IMG/VR virus record: IMGVR_UViG_3300035138_000079
Location: 1 to 61,040 of that record
DNA length: 61,040 nt
Strand: one strand, 5' to 3'
Origin: a virus
Below, piece by piece: positions 12,861 to 54,828 of the stretch. Position 1 is the stretch's first letter, and the number at the start of each line of letters is the position of its first letter. The translations under genes and the position numbers were made by a program. The notes below the pieces were generated by a model that was not told the origin of the DNA, made no database searches, and was given only the letters and a program-made list of their open reading frames with translations.

Positions 12861-13991
12861 ATGGAAAAGTTGGCATTAAAATATAGGCCTTTAAATTTAT
12901 CTGATATGGTTGGTCAAGAACATATTATTAAGATTTTGGAAGCTATTTTAGATAAACATTTTAAGGGGGCTGCTTTACCTGCAGGTTTATTGTTCTGTGG
13001 GTCTCGAGGAATAGGAAAGACTACTAGTGCAAGAATAATAGCAAGGGTTTTAAATTGCTCTGATCGAAAAGGTGTTAAAAGTTGTGGGAAATGTCCTTCT
13101 TGTTTAGCTATTTCTAAGGCTAATGATACCTCAGTTTTGGAAATAGATGCCGCTTCTAATGGTTTAGTGGATGATATCAGAAAGTTAAAAGATGTGGCTA
13201 TGACTTCTCATAATGGAGAGTATAGAGTTATAGTAATAGATGAAGTGCATGGGTGTTCTATTCAGGGATTCCAGGCATTATTAAAGATATTAGAAGAACC
13301 GCCAAGCAATACTATATTTATTATGGCTACTACTGAGAGCCATAAAGTACCTGAGACTATTAAATCAAGATTATTAGTTTTTGAATATAAGAGGATTTCT
13401 GTTAAGGATATTATGGATAGGCTCTTTTTTATTGCGGAAGCTGAGAATATTAAGTTAGATAAGGATGCTGCTCAGGCTATAGCCAATTATGTTAAGGGCG
13501 GTATGCGTGACGCTGTTATGTGTCTAGATCAACTGCAATATATTTCTAATCATATAACATCTCAGGTGTTTAAAGATTTCTTTGGAATCATAGATAAATC
13601 TTTTTATTTTGAACTTATTAATTGTTTAATTAATAATAATTTGGCAGAGGGTACGGTTTTATTGGAGGAGGTGTTTGATCGGGCTAATTCTGTTGTGATA
13701 ATTGTAGATTCTTTTATGGAGACTTTAAAAAATATTTTATTAGCTAAGAATAATGTTAAAGGTTATGAGAATTATATGGAGTTGGCAGAGAAATTAACTC
13801 CTAAAATTATCTTTAATATGTTAAATGTATTGTGGGAGTATAAAGGAAAAGTAAAAGTGTCTGGGGATAAAGTATCTTTAGGTATTGTTTATTTGAGATT
13901 AAGTTATGTGCTTAATCCAATGGTAGGAGAAGTAGAAAAGCCAGCCCATTTCACAAGTAAAGAAGCTGTAGCAAGCTTTTTTAATAGTTAG
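12861..13991 (+). CDS. dnaX: DNA polymerase III gamma-like clamp-loader ATPase
   Basis: 376 aa. Walker A GSRGIGKT at 47-54, four zinc cysteines (66, 75, 78, 81) inserted as in bacterial DnaX, and Walker B VIVIDEVH at 123-130. The arginine-finger motif SRC appears as SRL (169-171): Arg is kept, Cys is lost. The length is that of the short gamma form (domains I to III), with no tau extension, so it can form the loader ring but lacks the usual tau contacts to helicase and polymerase. Delta-prime and delta homologues lie at 53106 and 53902, 40 kb away. The ATPase would open a sliding clamp and load it on primed DNA; no clamp gene is seen in the window. Confidence 0.93.
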   Translation: MEKLALKYRPLNLSDMVGQEHIIKILEAILDKHFKGAALPAGLLFCGSRGIGKTTSARIIARVLNCSDRKGVKSCGKCPSCLAISKANDTSVLEIDAASNGLVDDIRKLKDVAMTSHNGEYRVIVIDEVHGCSIQGFQALLKILEEPPSNTIFIMATTESHKVPETIKSRLLVFEYKRISVKDIMDRLFFIAEAENIKLDKDAAQAIANYVKGGMRDAVMCLDQLQYISNHITSQVFKDFFGIIDKSFYFELINCLINNNLAEGTVLLEEVFDRANSVVIIVDSFMETLKNILLAKNNVKGYENYMELAEKLTPKIIFNMLNVLWEYKGKVKVSGDKVSLGIVYLRLSYVLNPMVGEVEKPAHFTSKEAVASFFNS

Positions 13992-14002
13992 GAGGAGTTA
14001 TT

Positions 14003-14341
14003 TTGAAAATTAATAAGGCCGTAGAAGAAAGGGAAGCTGAGATAGAAAAGATTGATGATTTGTATAAGTTGTTACTTGATTTTAAGTTTAGTGAGAAAGA
14101 CATGGCTATTATTTTATGGAAAACTAAAAGAAAAGTCTGTAAAAAATATCAGGCTATAAAATCTGTTGCTTTGTTGGAAAGAGTTAAGCCTAAAAATGAG
14201 AGTATTTATGGTAATGTTTATGGGCCTGATGTTAAATGGTTAGTTAAAAAAGGTTTGTCTTATAAAAAGATTATTGTTATGAGCATTACTTCTGGTGCTG
14301 AGTATGATCCTTTGTCTGAAAGGTTTAAACTTAAGCCTTGA
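14003..14341 (+). CDS. Unknown protein, 112 aa
   Basis: TTG start after TAGGAGGAG, 11 bases behind dnaX. Basic and helical in the first half, with a possible small DNA-binding helix pair; no family recognised. Its stop codon lies inside the -35 box of the class A promoter at 14338. Last gene of the dnaX operon. Confidence 0.68.
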   Translation: MKINKAVEEREAEIEKIDDLYKLLLDFKFSEKDMAIILWKTKRKVCKKYQAIKSVALLERVKPKNESIYGNVYGPDVKWLVKKGLSYKKIIVMSITSGAEYDPLSERFKLKP

Positions 14342-14366
14342 CATATGTATCATTTAGGGATATAAT
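14338..14366 (+). promoter_or_regulatory. Class A promoter without the leader motif
   Basis: TTGACA 14338-14343 in TTGACATATGT, spacer 17, TATAAT 14361-14366. What follows is a 140-base stretch without a gene. Confidence 0.8.
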
Positions 14367-14371
14367 TAGGC

Positions 14372-14500
14372 ACAGATTCAAAATAAAGTACTTAAGTGAT
14401 GAGGTGAAGAGTCATTGGAAAAGTGATTCTCCTTTAAATTAATTTATCTTATAGGGGCCAATATCCTCATCTATTGGCTCCATTATTATGCCTTTAGGAG
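14372..14500 (+). ncRNA. Candidate structured small RNA or leader
   Basis: Stretch between a class A promoter and the gene at 14507 with no usable reading frame. First hairpin AGAGTCA / TGATTCT (14408-14430), next to a CTCCTTT segment (14429-14435) that could pair with ribosome sites. Second hairpin GGGGCCAATA / TATTGGCTCC (14454-14481). It may act as an RNA on its own or as a leader for 14507. Confidence 0.4.
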
Positions 14501-14506
14501 GTTATT

Positions 14507-14713
14507 ATGAAAGTATTAAGTATTATACTAAGTGTTGTTTTAGGTCTTATACTTATAATATTTTTAAGAGATGTGTATAAAACAATACATCATAACGGTA
14601 ATCCATTTATACCTGTATTAATATGTTTATCCATTATATTAATTAGTATAAGTGGTTTTATTTTGCGTAAAAAATATCAAAGAGTGTCGGAAGTTATTCA
14701 GATAAAGAAATAA
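14507..14713 (+). CDS. Two-helix membrane protein, 68 aa
   Basis: ATG after TAGGAGG. Hydrophobic segments about 3-20 and 35-52, connected by a polar loop, and a basic tail. Opens the envelope-related region; followed by a terminator, so it is its own unit. Function unknown. Confidence 0.68.
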   Translation: MKVLSIILSVVLGLILIIFLRDVYKTIHHNGNPFIPVLICLSIILISISGFILRKKYQRVSEVIQIKK

Positions 14714-14721
14714 GGAGAGTG

Positions 14722-14754
14722 ACAGGGTGTATTTTTATATCCTGTTATTTTTAT
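14722..14754 (+). terminator. Intrinsic terminator
   Basis: ACAGGGTGTA / TATATCCTGT stem (two G-T pairs), TTTT loop, T-rich tail. Confidence 0.75.
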
Positions 14755-14776
14755 TTGAGGAAAATTTAAAATGATA

Positions 14777-14807
14777 ACTTAATATTTCATTATTTTTTAG
14801 GTATAAG
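14777..14807 (+). promoter_or_regulatory. Class B promoter variant (ACT-N22-TATAAG)
   Basis: ACT 14777-14779, TTTTTTAGG before TATAAG 14802-14807; spacing 22 is kept. Precedes the glycosyltransferase operon. Confidence 0.6.
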
Positions 14808-14837
14808 TATTAAATCTTATTTATGGAGGTAAAGGGA

Positions 14838-15872
14838 ATGAAAAAAGTAACTGTTATATTACCCTCTCATAACGAGGAGAAAATTATAAAAAAGGCCGTT
14901 ACTTCTTTATTAAATCAAACTTTTTGTAATATTGAAATTGTTGTCGCTTTGGATAATTGCACTGATAGAACTCAAAAGATTGTGGTAGATTCTTTTAGAG
15001 GAAATCCAAAAGTTAGAGTTTTTAAAAGTAAAAATAATAGACATAAAAAAGCAGGTGTTTTAAATCAATTATTTAGACTTTATTTTGATAAAATGGGTGA
15101 TTATATTTTAGTAATGGATGCGGATACAATTTTAGATCATAGGGCTATATTAGAAGGTGTAAAGTTTTTAGAATTGTATAAAGATCATGGAGCTGTGTGT
15201 TCTAGAGCTGGCATTTTAAATAGTGGAAAAAGAAATATGTTGTGGTGTTTTCAAAATATAGAGTATGGTTTTGGTGATACTAGTTTTGTTGAGAGTTTTG
15301 GAAATGTTTTTGTTTGTAGAGGAATGTATTCCATGTATACTAAGAAAGCCTTAAAAAATGTTTTACAAAGAGGTTTTATTTATGATATTTCGAGTATAAC
15401 GGAAGATTATGAGTTAACTTTAGAATTGAAAAAGAAAGGTTATAAAATATCCTCTTATAATAATATAAAGGCATATACTGATGTACCTTTAAAATTAAAA
15501 GAATTTTGGGTTCAGAGGGTGCGTTGGTTAAAAGGTGGATTAGAGGATTTAAAAAAGCATGGGTTAAAAAAATATACAAAAACAGATGTTTTTGAGGCTT
15601 TATTTAATAGGGCTATAATTTTAATACAAATATTTTTTATAATAGAAGCTGTAAAGGTAAGAAGTGTTAATATATATTTCTTGAGTTTAATTATTGGAGT
15701 TTATTTGTTAAATGCTGCTATTCGTTTTAAATATGTTCAGCATAAGAGTTTTAAAACTTATATGTTGGTTTTTACAGTTTTTCCAATGTTATTTTATAGT
15801 TGGTTAAATGCATTATTAATGTTATATACAACTATTTTAGCATTGTTTAAAATAAATATAAAATGGAGATAA
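14838..15872 (+). CDS. Processive family 2 glycosyltransferase, membrane-bound
   Basis: 344 aa from the ATG at 14838; the in-frame ATG at 14823 lies before the GGAGG site. The GT2 catalytic domain covers about 1-240: nucleotide-sugar binding region with VILPSHNEE, DAD at 94-96 (metal/UDP-sugar), TED at 188-190 (catalytic base) and QRVRW at 226-230, the QxxRW motif of processive beta-glycan synthases such as hyaluronan, cellulose and poly-GlcNAc synthases. Three to four membrane helices follow. It probably adds sugars to a cell-surface polymer from a UDP-sugar. Such phage genes often change the host surface and block later phages. It starts the envelope operon that runs to about 18.2 kb. Confidence 0.9.
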   Translation: MKKVTVILPSHNEEKIIKKAVTSLLNQTFCNIEIVVALDNCTDRTQKIVVDSFRGNPKVRVFKSKNNRHKKAGVLNQLFRLYFDKMGDYILVMDADTILDHRAILEGVKFLELYKDHGAVCSRAGILNSGKRNMLWCFQNIEYGFGDTSFVESFGNVFVCRGMYSMYTKKALKNVLQRGFIYDISSITEDYELTLELKKKGYKISSYNNIKAYTDVPLKLKEFWVQRVRWLKGGLEDLKKHGLKKYTKTDVFEALFNRAIILIQIFFIIEAVKVRSVNIYFLSLIIGVYLLNAAIRFKYVQHKSFKTYMLVFTVFPMLFYSWLNALLMLYTTILALFKINIKWR

Positions 15873-15885
15873 GGAGGAAATTATA

Positions 15886-16041
15886 ATGTATAATAATAAT
15901 ATTTTACCGCAGACAGGAGCTATTTCAACAGGTATTTTTGGTTTGTCTACTGGAAATACTGTGGCTATAGGTGTATGTGTTGTTTTAACTGGGGTAGTTT
16001 TATTTAAACTTTGTAGATTTAAATTGAAAGATAATAAATAA
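15886..16041 (+). CDS. LPQTG-membrane micro-protein, 51 aa
   Basis: ATG eight bases after AAGGAGG. The sequence begins MYNNNI, then LPQTG at residues 7-11, a hydrophobic span about 24-41 and a basic tail with K/R residues (KLCRFKLKDNK). This is the full layout of a Gram-positive cell-wall sorting signal, but with only six residues in front and no signal peptide. It sits between the glycosyltransferase and further membrane proteins. Either it is a sortase substrate or decoy, or the LPQTG is accidental in a small membrane protein. Confidence 0.7.
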   Translation: MYNNNILPQTGAISTGIFGLSTGNTVAIGVCVVLTGVVLFKLCRFKLKDNK

Positions 16042-16072
16042 TAGGAAAATTTTTATAGGGAGGAAGACTAAA

Positions 16073-16771
16073 ATGGATAATTTTTGGAAGGATAATAAAA
16101 ATAATATGTATGATGAAAATGAGGAGACTAAATTATTTAATGTGACAGGTAATTTTTGGGTGGATTCTTTGATTTTAAGTGTGGTACCTTGGTTACTTAT
16201 AGGGCTTGAAAGTAATAAAAGACTTAAATTTGTATGGTGGAAAGCTTGTTTAGTTGGTTTGGCTGCTTTATTGCTTGCTAATTTTAGTTTTGGTGATTTG
16301 CTAGGTTTAGGTACTGATTATAAAGCAAAGTATAAAGAAACTTTAGGGAAGTATGAAAAGTTAGAGGATAAGTTTAATGATTATGAGAATAAAGTTTCTG
16401 AGTATCAATCTAAAGTGGATAAATTAGAGGCTGAGAAAGATGATAAAAAGGTAGTTGTTAAGGAAACTGAAAAAGCTACTCCTAAACCTACTGAGAAGCC
16501 CACTAAGAAACCTGTAGTTAAAAAGACTTATAATTTTGGTCCTGGGCGTTATGTTGTTGGGTCTGATATTAAAGCTGGTACTTATGATATAGTTTGTTCG
16601 TCTGGTAGTGGTAATGTTATAGCTCATGATAATGGTTTTATGAATTCAGTTAATTTAATAATGAGTACTGTGGCAGATGATTTATATATTAGCAATTATA
16701 AAAATGCTAAGTTGAATAAAGGAGCTACTTTACAATTAGAAAGTGTTAGTGTAAAACTTATAGAAAAGTAG
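16073..16771 (+). CDS. Membrane protein with coiled coil and secreted beta domain
   Basis: 232 aa. Two hydrophobic stretches at about 27-45 and 53-75 anchor the protein, followed by a coiled coil (about 86-130), a Thr/Pro/Lys-rich linker, and a C-terminal domain from about 153 with GRYVVGSDIKAGTYDI, a pattern common in surface lipoproteins of Firmicutes. The C-terminal domain probably lies outside the cell. Part of the envelope cassette; exact role unknown. Confidence 0.78.
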   Translation: MDNFWKDNKNNMYDENEETKLFNVTGNFWVDSLILSVVPWLLIGLESNKRLKFVWWKACLVGLAALLLANFSFGDLLGLGTDYKAKYKETLGKYEKLEDKFNDYENKVSEYQSKVDKLEAEKDDKKVVVKETEKATPKPTEKPTKKPVVKKTYNFGPGRYVVGSDIKAGTYDIVCSSGSGNVIAHDNGFMNSVNLIMSTVADDLYISNYKNAKLNKGATLQLESVSVKLIEK

Positions 16772-16780
16772 GAGGCTCTT

Positions 16781-17203
16781 ATGAAAAGACTATTAATAGG
16801 TGGTTGTATAGTAGTATTGCTTTTGGGTTTAATTGCTCTGGCTCTACATGGTTTTATTAGTTTACTTGTTGATTTGGATGCTTTAGGTAATGTAGATGCT
16901 GAGAAGCAAGATATTAATGTGGGGTTAGAGCCTATAGAAGATTCCTTAAGTGTTAATGATTTAGTTATGACTGAGACCGATAATGGTTATAATATAACAG
17001 GGCTTATAAAAAATACTTCTGATGTAAATATTAAAGGTATAGAAGTAATAGTATCCTTGTATGATAAGGATAAAAATAAAATTGGTGAGGCTGCAGCTTA
17101 TTCAGGAAGACTTAAAAAAGGTGTTACTTGGAAATTTGAAGCTGTAAGCTTTGATAGTGGGGTTGTGGACTTTGATGTTGATATCGAGGTCCTGGGCCAT
17201 TAA
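16781..17203 (+). CDS. Membrane-anchored FxLYD-domain protein
   Basis: 140 aa. N-terminal hydrophobic anchor at about residues 4-30, a short acidic linker, and a domain of about 80 residues with GLIKNTSDVNIKGIEV and VSLYDKDKNKIGEA, the FxLYD signature. These domains are usually surface-exposed in Gram-positive bacteria. ATG start after TAGGAGG, ten bases behind the previous gene. Function unknown beyond surface location. Confidence 0.8.
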   Translation: MKRLLIGGCIVVLLLGLIALALHGFISLLVDLDALGNVDAEKQDINVGLEPIEDSLSVNDLVMTETDNGYNITGLIKNTSDVNIKGIEVIVSLYDKDKNKIGEAAAYSGRLKKGVTWKFEAVSFDSGVVDFDVDIEVLGH

Positions 17204-17223
17204 ATTAAAGGGAGGATTATATT

Positions 17224-17763
17224 ATGTTTAATATCTTATTGGCGGCGGGAATGTTTATAGTAGGAGTAGTTATTACTTTAGGTGTTTTGTTTTTGTTGGT
17301 TTATAAACATCTAAAAAGTATGGTGAGAGATGTTAGAAAGTTAAGTATTTCTTTAAATAAAAATAAAAAAAGGTTGGAGTCTATAGATATATTAACTTAT
17401 GGATTAATGACGAGATTTAATATGGTTCCCAGTGATCCAACTGAGGCTCCTACGGAAATGGATTTAACTCCTCATATTCCCTCGATTGTAAAGGAAGTTG
17501 TTGAGGAAGCTGAGGAGGATAAGAGTATTGTTTTTGAGAAAGAATTTTCTCAATATAGGGATATTGAAGTTGAGAAAAATAAAAAATTAAAACCTTTAAC
17601 TCGTGAAGAGTTTAGTAGTTTATCAAATGATGAGAAGATCGCTTATTTGAATCAATATAAACCTATTATTGATAAACTACCTAATAAAAAAGAAGTATTG
17701 CATAGTTTAAAAGACACTAAGAATACCTTATTAGATGAGGTTTATAATGCGAGGTGTAATTGA
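17224..17763 (+). CDS. Membrane-anchored cytoplasmic protein, 179 aa
   Basis: ATG after GGGAGG. One hydrophobic helix at about 4-30 followed by a basic segment, so the remaining 140 residues should face the cytoplasm. These are Glu/Lys-rich with no known domain. The TGA stop overlaps the next ATG (ATG starts on its last A), which suggests coupled translation. Confidence 0.7.
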   Translation: MFNILLAAGMFIVGVVITLGVLFLLVYKHLKSMVRDVRKLSISLNKNKKRLESIDILTYGLMTRFNMVPSDPTEAPTEMDLTPHIPSIVKEVVEEAEEDKSIVFEKEFSQYRDIEVEKNKKLKPLTREEFSSLSNDEKIAYLNQYKPIIDKLPNKKEVLHSLKDTKNTLLDEVYNARCN

Positions 17764-17867
17764 TGAGAAATTGTAGATCATGTCCTTGGGGTCGGATTAA
17801 CGCAGCTACTCAACAGGTAGAATGTACATATTTTAATGGCTGTGTTCAGGATGAAGAGGAGGAGTAA
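17763..17867 (+). CDS. Cys-rich mini-protein, 34 aa
   Basis: Starts on the last base of the previous stop and is followed without a gap by the next start. Four cysteines in two pairs (CRSC and C-x5-C) and an acidic Glu tail whose GAGGAGGAG codons also form the ribosome site of the next gene. Likely a zinc knuckle. Confidence 0.6.
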   Translation: MRNCRSCPWGRINAATQQVECTYFNGCVQDEEEE

Positions 17868-18107
17868 ATGGCTAAATTAGGTGTAATTGCTTATAAAAAA
17901 ATTAATCGTATTAATGAGGATTGTGGTATATGTCCTTATGCTGTTATGGATATGGAGGATTTTCAGGAGTTTAGAGAAATGTTTTGGTTTTTATATGCTA
18001 TAGCTGATCATATTTCTCGGGAAAATGCTGAAAGTATTTATCTTTTAGAGAAGTTTTTAGGATTTAGATGTACTGAGGATAAAAGATTTTTAAATAAGGT
18101 GGTGTAG
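17868..18107 (+). CDS. Unknown protein with CxxC motif, 79 aa
   Basis: ATG directly after the previous stop. Contains CGICPY near residue 19-24 and otherwise acidic helices with many aromatic residues. Not recognised. Part of the cotranscribed tail end of the envelope operon. Confidence 0.65.
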   Translation: MAKLGVIAYKKINRINEDCGICPYAVMDMEDFQEFREMFWFLYAIADHISRENAESIYLLEKFLGFRCTEDKRFLNKVV

Positions 18108-18110
18108 TTG

Positions 18111-18230
18111 ATGTTTTATCGGAATATATTTACTAGGGAGGAGCTTAGTGCTAGTGAATATCATGCTAAAGTAAAAAGATGTGAGATAGATGAAAAAGAG
18201 TGGGTAATGGTTGGTTTTGATAAGGATTAG
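18111..18230 (+). CDS. Unknown small protein, 39 aa
   Basis: ATG three bases after the previous stop, with AAGGTGG upstream. Short, soluble, no motif. Its stop codon lies in the left arm of the terminator at 18224, so it closes the accessory region before the virion genes. Confidence 0.55.
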   Translation: MFYRNIFTREELSASEYHAKVKRCEIDEKEWVMVGFDKD

Positions 18231-18257
18231 GGTTGTGTTCCCTAATCCTGTTTTTTT
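18224..18257 (+). terminator. Strong intrinsic terminator
   Basis: Perfect 9-bp stem GGATTAGGG / CCCTAATCC, seven-base loop, T7 tail. Separates accessory and virion modules. Confidence 0.9.
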
Positions 18258-18282
18258 GTCTTTTTATGATATACTATACAAT
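18256..18282 (+). promoter_or_regulatory. Possible promoter of the virion module
   Basis: A TATACTATACAATATAG stretch gives -10-like boxes at 18270 and 18277; TTGTCT at 18256 is 15 bases from TACAAT. It fits neither class A nor class B. Chosen mainly because a promoter is needed after the strong terminator. Confidence 0.35.
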
Positions 18283-18298
18283 ATAGTTAGGTGGTGAT

Positions 18299-19156
18299 TT
18301 GAGTGTGAGACGTTTAGGCTTTGGTTTAGGTTTTAGTTCAACTTATACTTTACTTGAAAATGCAGTGATACCTTTATTATTTGATGTTTTAGGTATTAGT
18401 GAGAATGCTATATTAATTTTTAATCCTTATACTCAGGTTGTAAGTAGTTTTACAGGACCTATTATTAGGTGTGTAAGGTCAGGGGATTTAGCTGAGGAAG
18501 AATTTACTTTTAAGAATGGGGTATTAGATACGGCTTCTATTTTATCCTGGTGTGGTGGAGTCGATACATTTATTAAAAGGGTTTATTTGCAAAATGATAA
18601 CAGTAAATACGCTTATCAAGAAGATTTTAATTATATGCCTAAAATTGTGAATGCTGGTGCTATTGTCACTGAGGGTTTATTATATGATGGTACTGATGAT
18701 GTATTAGTGATAGATAATTATTCAGCTTTAGATATAATAGCTCCTAAATTAGTTTTATATGCAAATTATAAAAGGGCCAGCTCTCATGTAGGCTTTGTGT
18801 TTTGTAAAAATGGTGTTGGTTCTGATGATGCACAATATTCTATTTTAAATGATGGTACTAGTGTTAGTGCTTGGTGGCATGGGAATGAGAGACTTATTGC
18901 CGCTAATGGGGAGCCTAGTCAAGATATGATTTTTTGGGATACTCTTGTGGCTGATGGGTTAAAATTAAATGCTAATGGTAGTGAATCAAGTGCTTTGTTT
19001 GATGCTACTCTGGTTAATGTTGATAATGTTTCTATAGGAGGCAGAAAAAATCCTACTAGTCATTCTACTTATTTTAATGGGCATATAAAAAGTGTTTATG
19101 TTTTTAATGCAGATGTTTATAGTAAGTATACAGATTTAAAAAATGGAGGTGTTTAA
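18299..19156 (+). CDS. Lectin-like (LamG/concanavalin fold) structural protein
   Basis: 285 aa from TTG; the GTG at 18305 is an alternative, as AGGTGG lies four bases before TTG. The segment CGGVDTFIKRVY..YMPKIV..GALL-like, with GLLYDGTDDVL, matches the pattern of arabinofuranosidase/LamG-like beta-sandwich domains found in phage adhesins. The second half continues as a jelly-roll lectin. No catalytic residues can be named. It precedes the terminase genes, an odd place for an adhesin, but the next gene is also structural-looking. Most likely a virion decoration or receptor-binding protein. Confidence 0.65.
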   Translation: MSVRRLGFGLGFSSTYTLLENAVIPLLFDVLGISENAILIFNPYTQVVSSFTGPIIRCVRSGDLAEEEFTFKNGVLDTASILSWCGGVDTFIKRVYLQNDNSKYAYQEDFNYMPKIVNAGAIVTEGLLYDGTDDVLVIDNYSALDIIAPKLVLYANYKRASSHVGFVFCKNGVGSDDAQYSILNDGTSVSAWWHGNERLIAANGEPSQDMIFWDTLVADGLKLNANGSESSALFDATLVNVDNVSIGGRKNPTSHSTYFNGHIKSVYVFNADVYSKYTDLKNGGV

Positions 19157-19501
19157 ATGCTTAATTTTGATAACAGTGTTATTAGTTTGAGTGAGGAAGA
19201 TTTAAAAGATATCAGAGCCTTAAATATTATTGGCTATAATAAGTTGGTTATTGAAAGAGCTATGTCTGGTTATTATGGTTTTAAAAGATTGGTGAATCCT
19301 GCAAGTAATATGACTCCTGATAGTGGATATAAGTTTTGTGTGGTGTATGCTGTTGAGGATTCTAATATTACGGTAACTGGTAATAGTTCTGTGGCTTCTC
19401 AGGTATTAAATAAAGGTCAGATGTTGGCGGGTAGATTTACGGAGGTGTCTTGTACGGCTGGGAGTTATGTAATGGCTTATCAAATACCTTCAGGAGCTTG
19501 A
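19157..19501 (+). CDS. Unknown, probably structural partner of the lectin-like protein
   Basis: 114 aa. ATG follows the previous stop with no gap. A beta-rich C-terminal half (residues about 50-114) with Ser/Thr/Gly-rich turns follows a helical first half. Not recognised; coupling to the lectin-like protein suggests a joint function. Confidence 0.62.
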   Translation: MLNFDNSVISLSEEDLKDIRALNIIGYNKLVIERAMSGYYGFKRLVNPASNMTPDSGYKFCVVYAVEDSNITVTGNSSVASQVLNKGQMLAGRFTEVSCTAGSYVMAYQIPSGA

Positions 19502-19691
19502 CAGTTTTTGTAAATTATGTTATGTTGTAAAAGATAACTGCTAAGCTCACTACAATAGTGTATATATAGAAATCTGATAAGACAACTTCTACTCAAAATA
19601 GAGAGTGCTTTAATAGTACTCTCTATTGTTATGTACCTTGACTTTACTTAGGTGGTGTGCTAAACTTGAGCTATAAAAGGGGGTGTCTTAA
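19502..19691 (+). other. Intergenic region before terminase, with hairpins
   Basis: 190 bases without a gene. It contains CACTA-CAA-TAGTG, then a 12-pair hairpin around AATAGAGAGT / ACTCTCTATT (19597-19627), and the terS ribosome site. Position next to terS makes it a candidate packaging site (pac or cos), not proven. Confidence 0.4.
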
Positions 19692-46022: not shown

Positions 46023-46052
46023 AAAAGAGAGTAAAAAATACTCTCTTTTTTT
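46023..46052 (+). terminator. Strong terminator closing the late region
   Basis: AAAAGAGAGTA / TACTCTCTTTT perfect 11-bp stem, A5 loop, T run. Confidence 0.9.
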
Positions 46053-46062
46053 AATTTTATGC

Positions 46063-46110
46063 TTGACATATGTAAAGGATTATTATATAATATAAACATA
46101 AGATAAATTA
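46063..46110 (+). promoter_or_regulatory. Class A promoter with leader motif
   Basis: TTGACA 46063-46068 with ACATATGT, spacer 17, TATAAT 46086-46091, then ACATAAGATAAAT. Drives the gene at 46131. Confidence 0.87.
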
Positions 46111-46130
46111 AATTTTTGGAGGAGAATATT

Positions 46131-46433
46131 ATGGGATATGTTAAAAACAGTGAAATTAAAATGAATATGGCTTTGATTTTAGAATTACAAGGCAATAGAT
46201 GGGAAGAATTAAAAGAGCTTAAAACGGAGCTTAAAAAGTTGCCTATAGAGGATTCTCGTAGAGTTAAGGCAATAGCTTATATAAAAGAACACAACTTAAG
46301 TTTAAATCATGGAATGTTTGTAGGCAAGAAACCTACAAATATAGAATTGAGAATATGGGAAGATACTTTTCTTAAAAATTTAAAAGTCTTGAGTGAGGCT
46401 GTTGATAAGCTGTTAGATATTTTATACAGTTAA
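46131..46433 (+). CDS. Unknown helical protein, 100 aa
   Basis: ATG at 46131, seven bases after GGAGGAG; an earlier TTG lies before the ribosome site. Lys/Glu-rich helices throughout, no CxxC or membrane segment. Monocistronic: private class A promoter and a terminator behind. Probably an early phage protein acting on the host, judged only from its setting. Confidence 0.7.
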   Translation: MGYVKNSEIKMNMALILELQGNRWEELKELKTELKKLPIEDSRRVKAIAYIKEHNLSLNHGMFVGKKPTNIELRIWEDTFLKNLKVLSEAVDKLLDILYS

Positions 46434-46521: not shown

Positions 46522-48030
46522 ATGAATTATAAAGATATAGATATTTCTAAAGTTTTGAAAATTAAAAACATCCCTAGAATTGAATTGAAGGAGCCTAAAT
46601 TTTATAAGGGTGAGTTTAAAGAATTTCAAAAAAAGGGTATTGTTTATATGTATTTTTGTCCTAAGTGTGGGCTTTTTGACACTTGTGGTAGTGGTAAATC
46701 TCATCATATTATGGGATTGATTTCTCTTCTGAAAGAAAGAAAAGAGTTGGGTAGATGTTTATATCTAGTTCCTTCAGCTGATATCTTGGCTAAAGTAGAT
46801 GAGTTTTCTAAATTTACTTCTTTGGATTTTGGGGCTGCTGTAGGAAATATTTCTAATCGAGTATCTTTATATAATACTTGGTTGGATGTTTTAATGGTCT
46901 CTTATGAGATTATTAGAGGTAGAGATTTAGAATATTTAGGAGGATTAGAGTGGGATACAGTCTTTTTGGATGAATCCCATGTTTTTAGGAACTCAAATAC
47001 AAAAACTTTTAGAGCTATTAGGAAATTGACTGAGACTGCTACAAGAGTTCATATTTTATCAGCTACTCCTATTCAGACTTCTTTAATTGACTTATATAAT
47101 CAATTAAAGATTTTAGATTTAGGTATTTTTAGTAGTGAAAGACATTTTAGAAGAAGATATTGCGAGGAAGAGACTTTATATTTTAGAAATGGTAAAAGGT
47201 TAGTTACCAGGGATAATATAGTTTCTTATAAGCATATAGATGAATTTAAGAGAATTATAGAACCCTTTTTCTTGCGGAGGACTATAGAGGATATTGAAAG
47301 TGAAATGCCTGATCTAGTGACTGATAAAATATGGGGTAATTTGAATAAGGTACAGGCTAAACTATATAAAGAATTGCAAAAAGGTGTAGTTGAATTATTA
47401 AAGAGTGGTCAAAAAGTGGAAGCAAAAAAGCATATTCATAATATGCAGAAAGTTGTGAATAGTACAAAAGCTATAGGGGCTGATGGCAAAGACTATAGTT
47501 GGAAATTTGATTGGATTATCAGTCAATTGTATAGTAATGCTGAGTTAGGTTTTAATGGTCCTATGGCTAATGATAAAGTGGTGATTTTTGCTCAACATAA
47601 AGATACTTTAAAAGTGTTGGGTGAGAGATTAGAAGCTTTAAAAATTAAGTATGTTTTAATGACTGGGGAAGAAAGTAAGACTTTAAAACATGCTTATAAG
47701 AAAAGATTTTGGGATGATCCTGATTGTAGAGTTATGTTGGGTACCACTGCGATTGAATGTAGTGCTAATTTGCAGTGTGCCAGATATTTAATTGCTGTAG
47801 ATGTTTTAGCTAATCCAGCTAGAGTGTCTCAGTTAGTGGGTAGAATTAGACGAACTGGGTCGGTGTATAAAACAGCTTTTTTTATAATGCTATTGTCTCG
47901 TGCTACTTTTGAGGAGAGATTAATAGAAAAATTGGAAAAAAGACAAGCTGTGCATGATAATATTTTTAATGAAAACTCAGATATTTTTAATGAGTTGTCT
48001 GTACAAGATTTATTAACACTTTTTAAGTAA
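46522..48030 (+). CDS. SNF2-type DEAD/DEAH helicase
   Basis: 502 aa. Walker A is DTCGSGKS (53-60) instead of the usual DxGLGKT, with a CPKC pair directly in front (46-49). Motif II is DESH (150-153), motif III SATP (180-183). The second RecA domain has VVIFAQHKDTLKVL, LMTGEES and motif VI LVGRIRRTG. This is the SNF2/RapA-like superfamily 2 type found in many phage replication modules, where it probably moves along double-stranded DNA or removes proteins from it. First gene after the class B promoter. Confidence 0.88.
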   Translation: MNYKDIDISKVLKIKNIPRIELKEPKFYKGEFKEFQKKGIVYMYFCPKCGLFDTCGSGKSHHIMGLISLLKERKELGRCLYLVPSADILAKVDEFSKFTSLDFGAAVGNISNRVSLYNTWLDVLMVSYEIIRGRDLEYLGGLEWDTVFLDESHVFRNSNTKTFRAIRKLTETATRVHILSATPIQTSLIDLYNQLKILDLGIFSSERHFRRRYCEEETLYFRNGKRLVTRDNIVSYKHIDEFKRIIEPFFLRRTIEDIESEMPDLVTDKIWGNLNKVQAKLYKELQKGVVELLKSGQKVEAKKHIHNMQKVVNSTKAIGADGKDYSWKFDWIISQLYSNAELGFNGPMANDKVVIFAQHKDTLKVLGERLEALKIKYVLMTGEESKTLKHAYKKRFWDDPDCRVMLGTTAIECSANLQCARYLIAVDVLANPARVSQLVGRIRRTGSVYKTAFFIMLLSRATFEERLIEKLEKRQAVHDNIFNENSDIFNELSVQDLLTLFK

Positions 48031-48042
48031 GGGGTTGTTTTA

Positions 48043-49542
48043 ATGCTGGAAAATACTGAGTATTATGAAAAAAGAGTGATGTTTGGCTTATTTAATAAAA
48101 ATAATAGCCAAGTAGAAAGTAATAAAAGAGTAAAAGATTTTGTCCATTATTTGAGTGATGCTCATTTTACTGGAAAAAATAAAATTATTTATACTATTGT
48201 TGTAAGATATTTTAGGTTAACTAATAATTTAATAAGTATAAATGATTTCATAGATTCAATTAGAAATTCAGATGATATGACGGAGGCTTTATTATATGAA
48301 TATCAACAGCTCTTTTTAGAGTTTGTTTTTGGCGAGCCTATTGTAGATGTTAATAGTTTGCCAGATGGAAGCAAGGGTTATATAAGTAATTCGGAGTTTA
48401 CTTATGCTTTAGAACGTTTAAGAAAGCAAACTCAAATTGATAGATATGGTAGTGTTTTGGCTGACACTATGCAAATCTTAACTAGTGGTAAAACTATTCA
48501 GGGTAAAGTATGTAGGGGTTTTCATGCGGCTAAGGAATATTATGATATTTCTTTAACGGATATTGATAAGGTTGGTGGTTTGGATTTACCTACTGGTAAT
48601 ATTCAAGATGAATCTGAGGATATCAGAAAGGAATATGCAGAGGCTAAGCATGGGGATGGTTCTCTTTTTAGAGTAATGACAGGTATTAAGGAAGTTGATG
48701 ATTTGACTGGTGGTGGTTGCCCTGGTGAAATGTGGTTTATAGCAGGTTTTTCTGGTGAGGGTAAAACTACTGAGTGTATTAATATTACTTATAATGCTAT
48801 GTTGCAAGGTAAGAATACTTTGTTTTGTACGGCAGAGACTTTAAGAAATCAAGTAAGAAGGAGATTAATTTCTAGGCATTCTATACATCCTAAATTTAAT
48901 TATCCTAAAGGTTTACCTGCGGATAATATTAAGAAAGGTCTTTTAAGTCCTGCTGAGGAAAAAATCTTTTTTGATGTTGTTGATGATTTGACTAATAATA
49001 AGGAGTATGGGTTATTTAAGATTGAACAAATACCTAATAAATGTACTGTAAATTATATAAATTCTTTATTAGTTAAATATGAACATGAGTTTTTTATTCA
49101 TGTAGCTGTATGGGATGAGATTCGTCTAGCTGGTGTGGCTAGAGGTAGACAGTCTAGAAGGGAAGAATTAAACGATATAATAATGGAGTCTAAACAAATG
49201 GCAGTTAATCATAAGCATCTTGATGATAGTAGAGGAGTTTTATTATTAGCTCCATATCAAATATCAAGAGCTAATTGGTTGGAAGCTATTAAGAGTGGTA
49301 CTTATACTAAGGCCTGTATGAGTGAGACTTCTGAGGCTGAAAAAACTGCGGATTTGATTTTATCTCATTTAGTTGTACCTGATAGACCTAATGAGATAAA
49401 AGCTCAGATTTTAAAATATAGAGATGGTAATGATAAAATCAATGAGTTTTATTTAGATTGGCTTAGTGATTGTTGTGTGATTAAAAGCAAAGAAGTAGAA
49501 CGAGTAGATTTATTGGATAATAATGATGGAGATGATTTATAA
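48043..49542 (+). CDS. Replicative DNA helicase (DnaB-like)
   Basis: 499 aa. N-terminal helical part (1-180), then the RecA-type motor: GIKEVDDLTGGGCPGEMW, Walker A GFSGEGKTT at 235-243, FCTAETLRNQVRRR and a Walker B-like VAVWDEIRL around 345. The layout is that of DnaB hexameric helicases although the sequence has diverged. It should unwind DNA at the fork together with the two primase pieces. ATG after AAGGGG. Confidence 0.87.
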   Translation: MLENTEYYEKRVMFGLFNKNNSQVESNKRVKDFVHYLSDAHFTGKNKIIYTIVVRYFRLTNNLISINDFIDSIRNSDDMTEALLYEYQQLFLEFVFGEPIVDVNSLPDGSKGYISNSEFTYALERLRKQTQIDRYGSVLADTMQILTSGKTIQGKVCRGFHAAKEYYDISLTDIDKVGGLDLPTGNIQDESEDIRKEYAEAKHGDGSLFRVMTGIKEVDDLTGGGCPGEMWFIAGFSGEGKTTECINITYNAMLQGKNTLFCTAETLRNQVRRRLISRHSIHPKFNYPKGLPADNIKKGLLSPAEEKIFFDVVDDLTNNKEYGLFKIEQIPNKCTVNYINSLLVKYEHEFFIHVAVWDEIRLAGVARGRQSRREELNDIIMESKQMAVNHKHLDDSRGVLLLAPYQISRANWLEAIKSGTYTKACMSETSEAEKTADLILSHLVVPDRPNEIKAQILKYRDGNDKINEFYLDWLSDCCVIKSKEVERVDLLDNNDGDDL

Positions 49543-49682
49543 TGCGTAAAATACCTTGGTTTAGTGTTATTTTTTATATGATGCTTATGGTTTTATGGGT
49601 ACCTATAATTATTTATTTATGGGGAATGTTTTTAGTATTTTTAGGTTCTTTTTTGGAGGATATAAGTCGATGGATTTGGTAG
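49542..49682 (+). CDS. Small membrane peptide between helicase and primase, 46 aa
   Basis: ATG starts on the last base of the DnaB stop. One or two hydrophobic segments (about 7-37), Trp-rich. Its 3' end holds the ribosome site (TTTGGAGG) of the primase gene and overlaps it by 13 bases. Either a true micro-protein or a translation link; no family known. Confidence 0.5.
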   Translation: MRKIPWFSVIFYMMLMVLWVPIIIYLWGMFLVFLGSFLEDISRWIW

Positions 49683-50194
49683 AAGCTATAAAAAGTAGTG
49701 TGTCAATTTATAATGTTTTAGACATATATAAAATATCTTATATGGGTGATGTTAAGGAGCAAATTAATTGTCCTTTTCATGGAGCGGATGTTAAAAAGTC
49801 TGCTCGTATTTACCCTGATACAAATACTGTTTTTTGTTGGACCTGTGATAAGGTTTGGGATGTTATAGAGTTTGTTAAAGAAATGGAAGATATGTCTTTT
49901 GGATCAGCGTGTAATTTATTAATTAAAAGGTTTAGTATTAATATACATATGGAGGATTATGAGGAGAGATTTTATAAGATTAAAAACACTATTCCTTTTA
50001 CGGGAGATTACTCTGATGTAGTAGAGAGGATGTTTAGAGAGTTTTTAGGTACATTGACAAATGACCAGTTTCGTGTTAAAATAAATGAAATTAATAGGTG
50101 CTGGTCGCTTAAAGATTTATTAGATAAAGGAAAGACATCTAATAAAGTTTATATAGATTGGTTGGAGAAGTGTAAAAAATTTATAGGAGGATGA
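49670..50194 (+). CDS. Primase zinc-binding domain protein (CHC2)
   Basis: 174 aa from ATG 49670. It contains the DnaG N-terminal zinc domain: Cys34, His37 (CPFH), Cys56 and Cys59 (CWTC), with SARIYPDTNTVFCW in between and VIEFVKEMEDMSFGSACNLL behind. The RNA polymerase/Toprim part is missing; it is encoded separately at 54973. This part recognises the template start trinucleotide in DnaG-type primases. Confidence 0.87.
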   Translation: MDLVEAIKSSVSIYNVLDIYKISYMGDVKEQINCPFHGADVKKSARIYPDTNTVFCWTCDKVWDVIEFVKEMEDMSFGSACNLLIKRFSINIHMEDYEERFYKIKNTIPFTGDYSDVVERMFREFLGTLTNDQFRVKINEINRCWSLKDLLDKGKTSNKVYIDWLEKCKKFIGG

Positions 50195-50197
50195 GTC

Positions 50198-50419
50198 ATG
50201 ATAGAACGTTTTGACAAGAGTAAGATATTGCCTTTAAGCGGGTGGTATACTGTTGGGGATGTCGCGGATATTTTATATAGAAAAAGGACTCGTATACATC
50301 AAATGATTGAAGAGTCCAAGTTTAGGCCAGAGGAGTTGCGGTATATAGGGGCAAAAAAGATTTTGCTTATATCAGAGGAAGGCTTAAAAAGAATTAAAGA
50401 GGAATTACCTGAGATTTAG
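50198..50419 (+). CDS. Small helix-turn-helix protein
   Basis: 73 aa. GWYTVGDVADILYRKRTRIHQMIEESKF at about 15-42 fits an excisionase/MerR-like winged helix. ATG start three bases after the previous stop, with AGGAGG inside the primase gene. Candidate roles are regulator or replication accessory factor; I cannot choose. Confidence 0.72.
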   Translation: MIERFDKSKILPLSGWYTVGDVADILYRKRTRIHQMIEESKFRPEELRYIGAKKILLISEEGLKRIKEELPEI

Positions 50420-50440
50420 GCCTTAAGGTCTTTTATTTTT
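50418..50440 (+). terminator. Short terminator
   Basis: AGGCC / GGTCT stem, TTAA loop, T-rich tail; overlaps the stop codon of the HTH gene. Confidence 0.55.
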
Positions 50441-50448
50441 TTTATTGT

Positions 50449-50479
50449 ACATGCTTTTTTAATAATTTGCAGGTATAAT
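50449..50479 (+). promoter_or_regulatory. Class B promoter (ACA-N22-TATAAT)
   Basis: TACATGCTTTTTT ... CAGG-TATAATA; ACA 50449-50451, TATAAT 50474-50479. Ahead of the ligase gene. Confidence 0.77.
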
Positions 50480-50504
50480 ATCTAATAAAAAATGGAGGTG
50501 CTTT

Positions 50505-51722
50505 ATGGCAAGAAATAAAGAATATTTATTAAAGGAAGCTAAGGAGCTTAAAGTTGCTATAACTGGTAACGAGACTATAAGTGAGTTAATGGATAAATTA
50601 ATGGTAGTAAAAGCTCCTGAGGGTTATATTAAAAATCAAATTGCTACTATGTCCGCTCAGGATGCAAAAAAGTTTTTAGATTATTCTAAAGGAAAACCTT
50701 GGGATACTGAGGAGTTAAATAAAAGATTTTGGAATAATCCTGGTTGGATTGCTGAGGTAAAGTTAGATGGTGTTAGAATGAAAGGTCATATTCAAAATGG
50801 TAAATGGCGTTTTGATACTCGTGCCAGATCGGATGTTACTTATGTGTATACTGAGAATACTGATAAATTTCCTCATTTTAACGGGAGAGCTGATTTAAGA
50901 GAATTTAATGATACTGTTTTAGATGGGGAATTTCTAATGCCTGTTGATAGTATTGATACTAGAATATTAGACCCTAAAGGAAAAAAAGGTTCTATAACTA
51001 AAGGTACTTTGACCACTACTATGGCGGTTATTGGTTCTGATGTAGATAAGGCTATTAAATTACAGGAAGTTTATGGGCCTTGTGAATATTACCTTTTTGA
51101 CATACTTAAGTATAAGGGTAGAGATATTACGCACTTTCCTTGGTATGTTAGGAGACGAATGTTAGAAGGAGTTTTTCTTATTTTACAAAATCATAATCCT
51201 TATTTAAAAATAACTACGCCTATGAGTGATAAAAAAGAGGTTATAGAGGATTTATATTTAGATGGGGTTTGTGGGGAAGTCTGCGAAGATTTAAAGAAAA
51301 CTTTTGAGACTATTACTGCTAAAGGTGGTGAGGGTCTTATGTTTAAAAAGATAGTGGGCAAATATGCTTCTGGAAAAAAGTCTGCAGATATGTGGAAGCT
51401 TAAAAAGTTTGAATCTTTTGAGGGTTTTATAACTGGATATATCCCAGGTAAGAATAATTTTAAAGGTATGGTAGGTAGTTTATTAGTTAGTGTGTATTTG
51501 CCTAATGGAGATATACATGAAATAGCGGCGGTTAGTCAAATGTCTTTAGAGTTAAGACGTAACTTAACCGCTGAGGATGGCAGTTTAAAAGAGGAATATT
51601 TAGATAAAGTTATTGAGATAAAAGGGCAGGAATTGACTAAAAATAATAGGTATAGACATGCCGTTTTATTTAGGTGGCGGGATGATAGGAGTCCTGATTC
51701 TTGTGTTTTTGATATAGATTAA
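50505..51722 (+). CDS. ATP-dependent DNA ligase
   Basis: 405 aa. Adenylation motif KLDG at 86-89 (Lys86 takes AMP), then VLDGEFL (motif III region), GGEGLMFKK (motif IV) and MWKLKK (motif V), followed by an OB-fold part with FITGYIPGKNNFKGMVGSLLV. Seals nicks during lagging-strand synthesis or repair. Carried as first gene of a class B unit. Confidence 0.93.
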   Translation: MARNKEYLLKEAKELKVAITGNETISELMDKLMVVKAPEGYIKNQIATMSAQDAKKFLDYSKGKPWDTEELNKRFWNNPGWIAEVKLDGVRMKGHIQNGKWRFDTRARSDVTYVYTENTDKFPHFNGRADLREFNDTVLDGEFLMPVDSIDTRILDPKGKKGSITKGTLTTTMAVIGSDVDKAIKLQEVYGPCEYYLFDILKYKGRDITHFPWYVRRRMLEGVFLILQNHNPYLKITTPMSDKKEVIEDLYLDGVCGEVCEDLKKTFETITAKGGEGLMFKKIVGKYASGKKSADMWKLKKFESFEGFITGYIPGKNNFKGMVGSLLVSVYLPNGDIHEIAAVSQMSLELRRNLTAEDGSLKEEYLDKVIEIKGQELTKNNRYRHAVLFRWRDDRSPDSCVFDID

Positions 51723-51746
51723 ATTAAAAATGAGAGGAGAATATTA

Positions 51747-52268
51747 ATGGCAAGAAAACAATCAAGATTAACAGATGTAGTTTTTTTATCTGATATAGAG
51801 GAAGAAAAAGTAAAGCCTACAAAAGAGAGAAAGCCTGTTCCTGAGACTAAGGAAGATAATATAAAAAAGACTGAAAAATCTGAAAAGGTTGTAAAAGAGA
51901 CTAAGGAAAATAAAAGAAAGCCTATAAAACCTGAGGATAGAAAGAAATTTAAAAAGGTAGATGAGGTTAAAGAGATAGAATCTAAAAAAGATAAAGAAGT
52001 GAAAACTAAAAGTTCTAAAAAACGTATAACAACTAAAGAAAAGGTAGAGGCTTTTATAGAAGATAAAAATTTAGTTTTAGTGTCTCCTGAGCCTAAAGAG
52101 GAGCCTTTTAAATGTATTTGTGGTGGTAAAGGTAAGTATGGTTATGAGCTTGTGGATGATTCAGGTAATATTTATACTGTAGGCAAAACTTGTTTAGGTT
52201 ATTGTGGCATTACTTTACCCAAGAAAAAAAGACGTAGGCCAACTAAGAGTAAGGCTGAGGAAGTGTAA
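51747..52268 (+). CDS. Lys/Glu-rich protein with C-terminal zinc ribbon
   Basis: 173 aa. Residues 15-115 are low complexity, dominated by Lys, Glu and Thr, probably disordered. Residues about 130-160 hold CICGGKGKYGYEL and TCLGYCG, four cysteines for one zinc site, and the end is strongly basic (KKKRRRPTK). Likely a nucleic-acid-binding accessory protein of replication; no family known. Confidence 0.7.
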   Translation: MARKQSRLTDVVFLSDIEEEKVKPTKERKPVPETKEDNIKKTEKSEKVVKETKENKRKPIKPEDRKKFKKVDEVKEIESKKDKEVKTKSSKKRITTKEKVEAFIEDKNLVLVSPEPKEEPFKCICGGKGKYGYELVDDSGNIYTVGKTCLGYCGITLPKKKRRRPTKSKAEEV

Positions 52269-52286
52269 TAAATTTTTAAAATCTCC

Positions 52287-52315
52287 TTGACATATGTATA
52301 GGGCTATGGTATTAT
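52287..52315 (+). promoter_or_regulatory. Class A promoter of the sigma-like gene
   Basis: TTGACA 52287-52292 with ACATATGT, spacer 17, TATTAT 52310-52315. No CATAAGATAAAT leader. The ribosome site AAGGGGGAA matches that of the amidoligase gene. Confidence 0.82.
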
Positions 52316-52351
52316 ACGTTTATATTAAATATTTAAGGGGGAATTTTAAAA

Positions 52352-53044
52352 ATGAAAATAAGACTAGATAAGGATAATAGTAGTAGGAATATTTTGGGTG
52401 TAGCTCCAAAAGATTATTCGGATTTCTATAAAATATGGTTTCCTAAACTTAGAACTCATATCTATTATAAGGGATATTTCCCTGATGACATCATAGAAGA
52501 TGTCACACAAGAATTAATGACGGATTTTTTTGAGGGGGATTATTTAAATAAGTTTGACCCTGATAAAATGTTTCTTAACAAAAAAACAGGTGAAATGTCA
52601 AAAGTTAAATTTTCTACGTTTTTATATAGTTGGACTAATAAAAAGCTTCTCGGTAAAAGAGATGCTTATAAAAGACTTTTTTGGGCAGAGGGTTTATCTA
52701 CTAATAAACTGATTTCCGATTCTGATAATACCACAACCTTTATAGATAGTTTGGGAGCTGTGGCAGATAATTACCAACTAGAGTTTAAAGAGTTGGTAGA
52801 TTATATAAAAGAAAGTTTGAAAGAAAGAAAAGTAACTTCTTTAGGGAATAATTTTCCTTTATTCTTTGATAAAATTATGGAGCATGTTTTTTCTGGTGGA
52901 AAAACTCAAAGGGAATTTAAAACTAAGTCAGGTTTGAATTTAAGTTCTTTGGCTAAAGATTTGGGCATTTCTACTACGGGAGTGTCTTATATGCTAAATA
53001 AATTGAGAGTCGTTTTAAAAGACGACTTAGGAATTACTTATTAA
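52352..53044 (+). CDS. Sigma-factor-like transcription protein
   Basis: 230 aa. DDIIEDVTQELMTDFFEGDYLNKFDP (about 45-70) and KFSTFLYSWTNKKLLGKRDAY (86-106) match the pattern of sigma-70 region 2, which binds core polymerase and the -10 box. The last 34 residues contain a helix-turn-helix (LSSLAKDLGISTTGVSYMLN), as in region 4. The middle is unlike known sigmas. Monocistronic, with a class A promoter and a strong terminator. It may direct host polymerase to the class B promoters. A non-sigma regulator with a similar fold remains possible. Confidence 0.72.
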   Translation: MKIRLDKDNSSRNILGVAPKDYSDFYKIWFPKLRTHIYYKGYFPDDIIEDVTQELMTDFFEGDYLNKFDPDKMFLNKKTGEMSKVKFSTFLYSWTNKKLLGKRDAYKRLFWAEGLSTNKLISDSDNTTTFIDSLGAVADNYQLEFKELVDYIKESLKERKVTSLGNNFPLFFDKIMEHVFSGGKTQREFKTKSGLNLSSLAKDLGISTTGVSYMLNKLRVVLKDDLGITY

Positions 53045-53055
53045 AATAAATATAA

Positions 53056-53092
53056 AATAATGATAGGGTTTAAAATCTCTATCATTATTTTT
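53056..53092 (+). terminator. Strong intrinsic terminator
   Basis: AATAATGATAG / CTATCATTATT perfect 11-bp stem followed by a T run, behind the sigma-like gene. Confidence 0.9.
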
Positions 53093-53105
53093 TATAGGAG
53101 GTTTT

Positions 53106-53897
53106 ATGAGATATAAGGAATTTTTGTCTGAGTTTAAAAATCCAGGCAATTATTTATTGTCTGGTATTCCTGGGATAGGTAAATTTGAAATAGCTTTAAA
53201 AGTAGCTTTAAAATATGTAAAAAGCTATGATATTAAAAGTGTTAATAAATGTACTATAGATATAATAAGGGATATTATAAAGTTTGTTAATGTGAGGCCT
53301 TTTGGTTCAGAGTATAAAATTGTTATACTGAATATAGATGGGATATCTAATAATGCAGCACAAGCCTTATTAAAAGTTTTGGAAGAGACTCCTAATAGAA
53401 GTCGTTTTATACTGACTGGGAATATTGATTTAGGTGTACCTGAGACTATTATATCTAGGTGTAAAGTGCTTCATATTTCTCCTTTAAGTGAATATGAATT
53501 AATGGTTAAATATGAGGAGAAATATAATGTTAAAGTGCCTTTTGGAAAGGCTTGTTATGCTGGTGGTTCTTTTGGGAAATTAGAGGAGCTTATGAAGGCT
53601 GATACAATATTAAATAATATTATGCATTATATCTCAACATTGAGTAATGGAAAGATAGAGAGGTTATATGAGATTGTTAAAAGTTGGACTGAGGAAGAGG
53701 TAAAATATTTTAGGGTTTTAGTAGAAAATACTTTAGTAATGCATATAAGTCCTAGACTTTTATTTTCTAAAGATGATTTAATTCTGGCTAATACGGTTTT
53801 GTTTGATAAAGATAAGGTTTTAAAGTGGTTGGATTTACCCTTAAAAGTTTCTTTAAAAATGGTTTATATAGGTATTAGGTGTAAGGAGAGGAAGTGA
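53106..53897 (+). CDS. holB: Clamp-loader delta-prime-like subunit
   Basis: 263 aa. AAA+ fold with a damaged Walker A (GIPGIGKFE, Phe in place of Thr/Ser), VILNIDGISNNAAQALLKVLEE (Walker B-like region without the catalytic Asp-Glu pair) and a clear SRC arginine-finger motif (TIISRCKVLH, near residue 119). These are features of delta-prime, the non-hydrolysing stator of the loader. No promoter is visible between it and the upstream terminator. It is paired with the delta gene four bases behind. Confidence 0.88.
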   Translation: MRYKEFLSEFKNPGNYLLSGIPGIGKFEIALKVALKYVKSYDIKSVNKCTIDIIRDIIKFVNVRPFGSEYKIVILNIDGISNNAAQALLKVLEETPNRSRFILTGNIDLGVPETIISRCKVLHISPLSEYELMVKYEEKYNVKVPFGKACYAGGSFGKLEELMKADTILNNIMHYISTLSNGKIERLYEIVKSWTEEEVKYFRVLVENTLVMHISPRLLFSKDDLILANTVLFDKDKVLKWLDLPLKVSLKMVYIGIRCKERK

Positions 53898-53901
53898 ATT
53901 A

Positions 53902-54828
53902 ATGGCTTATTTTTTACAATGGTTAAATAAATTTCCTGAGAGGAAAAGACTTGTATACATTTGTGGAAAAGAAAGGCTTTTAGTTAATGAAGTGTTAAAA
54001 GCTGAGATGGCTAGTCGTAATGTTTCTGATTTAGGTTTAATTAAATTAGATGGGGCTAAGGATAGTATTGTTAATATAGATACTGAGTTAAAGCAATATG
54101 GGAATAATAATAGATTGATTCTTCTTAAAAATGCCGATCAAATTAAAGATTTTAGTTTTGTTATTAAATGGACTAACTTAACACATATGAGAAAGACTAG
54201 TTTAATTTGTGTAGGAAATGAGGTATTTCCTCAGACTAAGGAGGACCGATATAGACCTTTTATAGAAAAGAGGGATAGTGGTAAATTCATAGAATGTAAA
54301 GAGCTGAGTTTGGAGCAAACTTTAGAGCTTATAGCTATGAAAGGTAGTTTTACTCATGACGCAAGGAACGCATTATATGTTGCTTGTGGAGGTAATTTAT
54401 CTAAAATTTTAAATGAAATTGAAAAATTAAATTACCTGGGTAAGACAATTACTAAGGAGTTAGTAGATGAGTTTGTTAATGTAAGCATAAATGATAACTT
54501 TGTTAATAAGTTGTTTGAGAGGACTTATACTTTAGATATGGTGTCTTTAATACAAGAAAAAGATATACCTTTGATTATAGCAGGTATAGAGTATTATTTA
54601 CTTAACATGCTTTTAATTATTAAATATAGAAGTAATGATAGAGGCTTTAAAGATATAGCCTCTATATCTGGGGTACCTTTATTTTTAGTCAATAAACTAT
54701 TCTTTTTGTGCAAAGGAGTGTCTGAGGCGACTATTCTAAGAAGAATAAAATTATTAGCTAATTTAGATGTATCTTATAGAAAAGGGAATATTGTAGGAGC
54801 TTTGGAAAGGTTCTTGATATTATGGTAG
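53902..54828 (+). CDS. holA: Clamp-loader delta-like subunit
   Basis: 308 aa. Pattern of the HolA family: RLVYICGKERLLVNEVLKAEM at the start, LIKLDGAKDSIVNIDTELKQYGNNNRLILLKNAD, then a helical lid (ALYVACGGNLSKILNEIEKLNYLGKTITKELVDEFV) and C-terminal collar helices. Delta opens the sliding clamp. No Walker motif, as expected. Its last codons overlap the next small gene. Confidence 0.83.
   Translation: MAYFLQWLNKFPERKRLVYICGKERLLVNEVLKAEMASRNVSDLGLIKLDGAKDSIVNIDTELKQYGNNNRLILLKNADQIKDFSFVIKWTNLTHMRKTSLICVGNEVFPQTKEDRYRPFIEKRDSGKFIECKELSLEQTLELIAMKGSFTHDARNALYVACGGNLSKILNEIEKLNYLGKTITKELVDEFVNVSINDNFVNKLFERTYTLDMVSLIQEKDIPLIIAGIEYYLLNMLLIIKYRSNDRGFKDIASISGVPLFLVNKLFFLCKGVSEATILRRIKLLANLDVSYRKGNIVGALERFLILW

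Follow-up and report, generated by a model that had tools for sequence, protein, structure and literature searches.

A bacterial-type clamp loader encoded alongside a family A DNA polymerase in a phage with a probable genome size of about 88.5 kb

Genes for three clamp loader subunits

The window, i.e. the whole stretch of DNA analysed here, is an entire IMG/VR virus record of 61,040 bp, classed as linear and representing a partial virus. Three open reading frames that the initial annotation had read as the gamma, delta' and delta subunits of a bacterial-type clamp loader are present on its plus strand, at 12861..13991, 53106..53897 and 53902..54828, respectively. Profile searches agreed with this reading and placed neither of the latter two genes in unrelated families.

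The 376-residue product of 12861..13991 is a short form of DnaX, of gamma length and without the tau extension. It scored 311.9 bits against TIGR02397 (dnaX_nterm; E 6.1e-93), exceeding the curated cut-off of 250, and matched phrog_5846 (E 3.6e-67) as well as E. coli gamma/tau structures in the PDB (E 1.8e-45). As read from the sequence, it carries a Walker A motif (GSRGIGKT, residues 47-54), a Walker B motif (VIVIDEVH, with D127 and E128), four zinc cysteines (C66, C75, C78 and C81) and an SR arginine finger at 169-170. The protein is ~40% identical to bacterial DnaX, a level similar to that seen for its best-matching phage proteins. When genomes were scanned with gamma, DnaX proteins from many phyla came up, again at ~40% identity; these matches were steered by the peptide patterns used in the scan, which therefore indicates nothing firm about the host.

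The 263-residue product of 53106..53897 matched TIGR00678 (holB) with an E value of 6.9e-20 over the AAA+ core only (residues 47-137). With 71.4 bits, it lies far below the curated cut-off of 180.6, and we therefore call it delta'-like. It also matched PF13177 (E 1.5e-16). Its Walker A motif is degenerate (GIPGIGKF, where F27 replaces T/S), NI stands at the position of the DE of gamma in Walker B, and the SRC arginine finger is intact at 117-119. Neither the sequence nor an alignment with gamma and with gp18 of Streptococcus phage Dp-1 revealed a zinc module in this protein. We labelled it delta' rather than a second gamma on account of its inactive ATPase motifs, its ranking with holB and its location beside delta.

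The third gene starts 4 bp after the delta' gene and encodes 308 residues, of which 18-306 align with nearly the whole TIGR01128 (holA) model (E 1.1e-18). Here too the score, 67.6 bits, is below the curated cut-off (80), hence the designation delta-like. A phmmer search of the PDB with delta found no relative, and an AF2 model (mean pLDDT 41) was too poor for comparison with the three-domain fold of delta subunits. Inspection of the sequence revealed no Walker A motif in delta. The division of motifs proposed in the initial annotation was thus recovered, with intact Walker A and B motifs only in gamma, and gamma is predicted to be the only ATPase-competent subunit among the three.

Two close IMG/VR relatives, both longer than the window, share DNA with it at 91-99.6% identity: 3300035152_000033 (79,979 bp, ~99.6%) and 3300031369_000002 (88,665 bp, ~91-95%). 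The three loader genes are conserved in both, with protein identities of 96-100%. The two ends of the 88,665-bp relative overlap exactly over 127 bp and correspond to neighbouring positions in the window, indicating that this relative is effectively a closed circle of ~88.5 kb. The window is thus about two thirds of a genome of this kind, and by way of the closed relative the whole genome was in effect searched for a clamp and for polymerases. The window also contains an ~815-bp segment (56846-57659) that is absent from both relatives, whose DNA runs directly from ~56845 to 57660; this segment carries an ORF for a Rha-family regulator (56900-57649; PF09669, 4.6e-14).

The polymerase, its neighbours and the sliding clamp

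A gene at 57918..60419 (plus strand) encodes a family A DNA polymerase (PolA) of 833 residues. It matched PF00476 with 282.8 bits (E 5.3e-84), above the gathering score of 34.3, as well as the Klenow fragment (E 1.2e-73), and it includes a 3'-5' exonuclease, i.e. proofreading, domain (PF01612, E 7.3e-18); a 5' nuclease domain was not found in PolA. Neither a family C (DnaE/PolC) nor a family B (PolB) polymerase was found in the window or in either relative. Judged by these searches, the family A enzyme, which the initial annotation had also assigned to this family, is the only polymerase detected in this phage.

PolA lies in a region rich in replication genes, all on the plus strand. These encode a DnaB-like replicative helicase (48043..49542; PF03796, 1.3e-10; phrog_19, 4.4e-30), an ATP-dependent DNA ligase (50505..51722; PF01068, 5.1e-22; phrog_114, 3.8e-46) and the two halves of a DnaG-type primase, namely a CHC2 zinc-binding half (49595..50194; PF01807, 5.9e-11) and a catalytic RNAP-core/Toprim half (54973..55620; TIGR01391, 1.7e-43; Toprim_2, 5.9e-14), which come from two genes ~5 kb apart. 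A SNF2-type helicase is encoded in the same region, and a possible sigma-like factor (52352..53044; sigma70-ECF superfamily, 1.8e-4, below cut-off) lies directly upstream of delta'.

No DnaN was found within the 61,040-bp window, whereas each of the two relatives carries one DnaN-like gene, matching TIGR00663 over nearly all 367 positions (E 3e-35 and 6e-35). In the match with an E value of 3.2e-35, model positions 1-355 of 367 were aligned; its score of 116.5 bits is below the curated cut-off of 137.65, and for this reason we call the protein DnaN-like. The protein contains the beta N-terminal (9e-17) and C-terminal (7.5e-11) Pfam domains, and it matched both the phage processivity-factor family phrog_947 (E 1.9e-41) and solved beta clamps (E 9.6e-19). 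In the 88,665-bp relative, the clamp gene lies ~10 kb past the point that matches the right end of the window. The initial annotation had envisaged either the host DnaN or a phage clamp outside the window; the presence of a clamp gene in both relatives favours the phage clamp over that of the host. This phage thus most likely brings its own clamp, assuming that the strain resembles its 91-99.6%-identical relatives there. The segment missing from the window also holds a RecA-like recombinase (7e-61), SbcD- and SbcC-like ORFs and, near the clamp gene, a Cas4-like nuclease. The clamp encoded at L026:12519-13619 (minus strand) ends in NQLQIDFD and, by eye, extends past the usual end of a beta clamp.

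No canonical clamp-binding peptide was found in PolA, the ligase or the loader. A scan of all phage proteins gave a single strict match, in the portal protein, versus 0.6 expected from shuffling, which corresponds to the chance rate. PolA possesses a C-terminal extension of ~130 residues (about 700-833) past the polymerase domain, and searches of Pfam, NCBIfam and the PDB with this tail gave no match. By eye, its stretch IKNLMAAYPGQNKVIIDYPGG is similar to the DnaE C-terminal domain, to which the tau subunit of the loader binds in E. coli (PMC3919608). When 56 DnaE tails were combined into a profile and 3288 targets, including 3000 shuffles, were searched with it, the window's PolA tail ranked first, but only with an E value of 0.11; the PolA tail of the near-identical relative gave 1.3 and that of Microbacterium phage Magritte (OR553905) 220. 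Profile-profile alignment (hhalign) of the PolA tail with the DnaE domain yielded P 0.0011 and a probability of 21% over 30 columns, compared with P 0.48 for an unrelated control and 0.53 for the Magritte PolA tail. An AF2 model of the tail (pLDDT 36) was too poor for fold comparison. Since the likeness was noticed first and tested afterwards, the comparison is post hoc and is kept as a lead only. It is unlikely that part of the extension is a homologue of the DnaE C-terminal domain, grafted onto the Pol I-type enzyme so as to dock it on the loader or clamp, a reading that also sits poorly with a gamma that lacks the tau extension. If true, such a PolA would combine Pol I and Pol III architectures in a real chimaera.

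Comparison with known systems and a proposed replicase

The initial annotation implied that a family A polymerase beside such a loader is an oddity, on the grounds that these polymerases normally work without one. This is true for T7-like phages; among phages it is not a rule. Streptococcus phage Dp-1 (NC_015274) has the same set, with a DnaN (gp10), gamma (gp17), delta' (gp18), delta (gp19) and a family A polymerase (gp71), and Streptococcus phage MS1 (KY629621) likewise encodes the clamp, gamma, delta', delta and PolA. Magritte has at least gamma, a delta just upstream of PolA and a DnaN-like clamp; its PolA also carries a C-terminal extension. Magritte differs in its host group and in its 133 kb genome, where the loader and clamp genes are annotated only as 'ASCE ATPase'.

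The likeness to Dp-1 extends to DnaB, DnaG, an SF2 helicase, a sigma-like factor, a RecA-like recombinase and an HD hydrolase, and the delta' of Dp-1 is similarly devoid of a zinc module. However, the two phages are far apart: gamma is 37% and PolA 23% identical, while delta and the clamp could not be aligned by blastp. Moreover, gamma, delta' and delta are contiguous in Dp-1, whereas gamma is set apart from delta' and delta in the window; DnaG is a single gene in Dp-1 and split in our phage; the Dp-1 gamma lacks the zinc insert, whereas the window gamma has the zinc cysteines; and the Dp-1 polymerase lacks the long C-terminal tail.

With the E. coli Pol III loader gamma3-delta-delta' (PDB 1jr3 and others), the window phage shares the ATPase motifs and zinc module of gamma, a dead delta' with SRC and a Walker-less delta. 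It differs in having no tau extension, no zinc module in delta' and no encoded family C polymerase. Thermocrinis Octopus Spring virus (TOSV) and its relatives combine a family A polymerase with a DnaN-like clamp, and the authors found no obvious clamp loader (PMC7689252), in contrast to the full loader of the window phage.

Thus, the window phage is a diverged addition to a small, little-studied class that was already known, a finding that is solid but not unprecedented. It adds an effectively complete genome to the phages that combine a Pol I-type polymerase, a bacterial-type clamp and a full loader. Such a system would allow a direct test of whether a family A polymerase can serve as a processive replicase with a beta-type clamp, as well as of its clamp contact, the latter also being a question for TOSV, where no loader was found.

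Taken together, we propose, with a probability of about 0.8, that the phage encodes a nearly self-sufficient gamma-delta-delta'/beta/PolA replicase, in which the loader opens the phage's own clamp and the clamp tethers PolA. The division of labour in the E. coli loader is well established, and the combination of an ATPase-competent gamma, an ATPase-dead delta' and a Walker-less delta matches that of bacterial loaders, which supports the proposal. In such a machine, gamma would supply ATP hydrolysis, delta would open the clamp, and delta' would be the partner that carries the arginine finger. The loader, most likely a gamma3-delta-delta' complex by analogy with that of E. coli, would place the phage DnaN-like beta clamp, presumably in preference to that of the host, at primer ends. 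The clamp would then tether PolA, its probable main client, and perhaps other clients too, during replication of the ~88.5-kb genome, while the phage DnaB-like helicase, split DnaG-type primase, ligase and RecA would act alongside. This model is weakest at the step that connects PolA with the clamp.

As an alternative, the loader might work mainly with the host DnaN clamp or recruit host Pol III, leaving PolA to act alone as in T7-like phages; this would fit a gamma that still resembles cellular DnaX and a PolA in which no clamp motif was recognised. However, both longer relatives have a DnaN-like clamp of their own and the phage has its own proofreading PolA, and the presence of all three, loader, clamp and polymerase, suggests that they form a dedicated set, so that we regard a host-directed loader as improbable. 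Still less probable is a clamp and loader that serve mainly non-replicative clients, for example late transcription coupled to the clamp in the manner of T4 gp45 through the sigma-like ORF at 52352-53044. This ORF lies 61 bp upstream of delta', and the sigma factor of Dp-1 also adjoins its DnaB, DnaG and PolA genes, but the match itself is weak, adjacency alone is poor evidence, and a role in transcription could be additional to replication rather than an alternative to it. Finally, it is hardly credible that delta' and delta are misannotated here and belong to diverged AAA+-like proteins of other function: both score below their curated cut-offs and delta found no PDB relative by phmmer, yet holA is aligned over almost its full length (1e-18), the two genes lie side by side, and in Dp-1 gamma is followed by the same pair, gp18 matching holB (1.5e-13) and gp19 matching holA above its cut-off (5e-25).

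Promoter-like repeats and other genes of the window

Besides the replication genes, the window contains at least seven similar promoter-like units of the form CTTGACATATGTNNNG ... TATAAT, in which an inverted repeat spans the -35 box. They are located at 2019-2102, 2761-2844, 3960-4043, 14332-14368, 46048-46131, 52275-52316 and 56233-56316, and several of them are followed by a AACATAAGATAAAT block. These units probably form a single co-regulated family of phage promoters/operators. Another family of promoter-like repeats ends in AGGTATAAT and shows no evident -35 consensus; its members lie at 7864-7911, 11906-11955, 50435-50482, 55948-55997, 56052-56101 and 60435-60484, and this family possibly represents a different temporal class.

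The 951-residue ORF that starts at 9033 was considered as a polymerase and rejected, as profiles identify it as a radical SAM protein. This gene (9033-11888) encodes a relative of the TIGR03960 B12-binding family (2.5e-71, below cut-off), which is unusual cargo for a phage. At 379-1608, the window also encodes a cysteine peptidase of the papain family that appears to carry a signal peptide (PF00112, 2.5e-7; phrog_16701, 4.8e-12).
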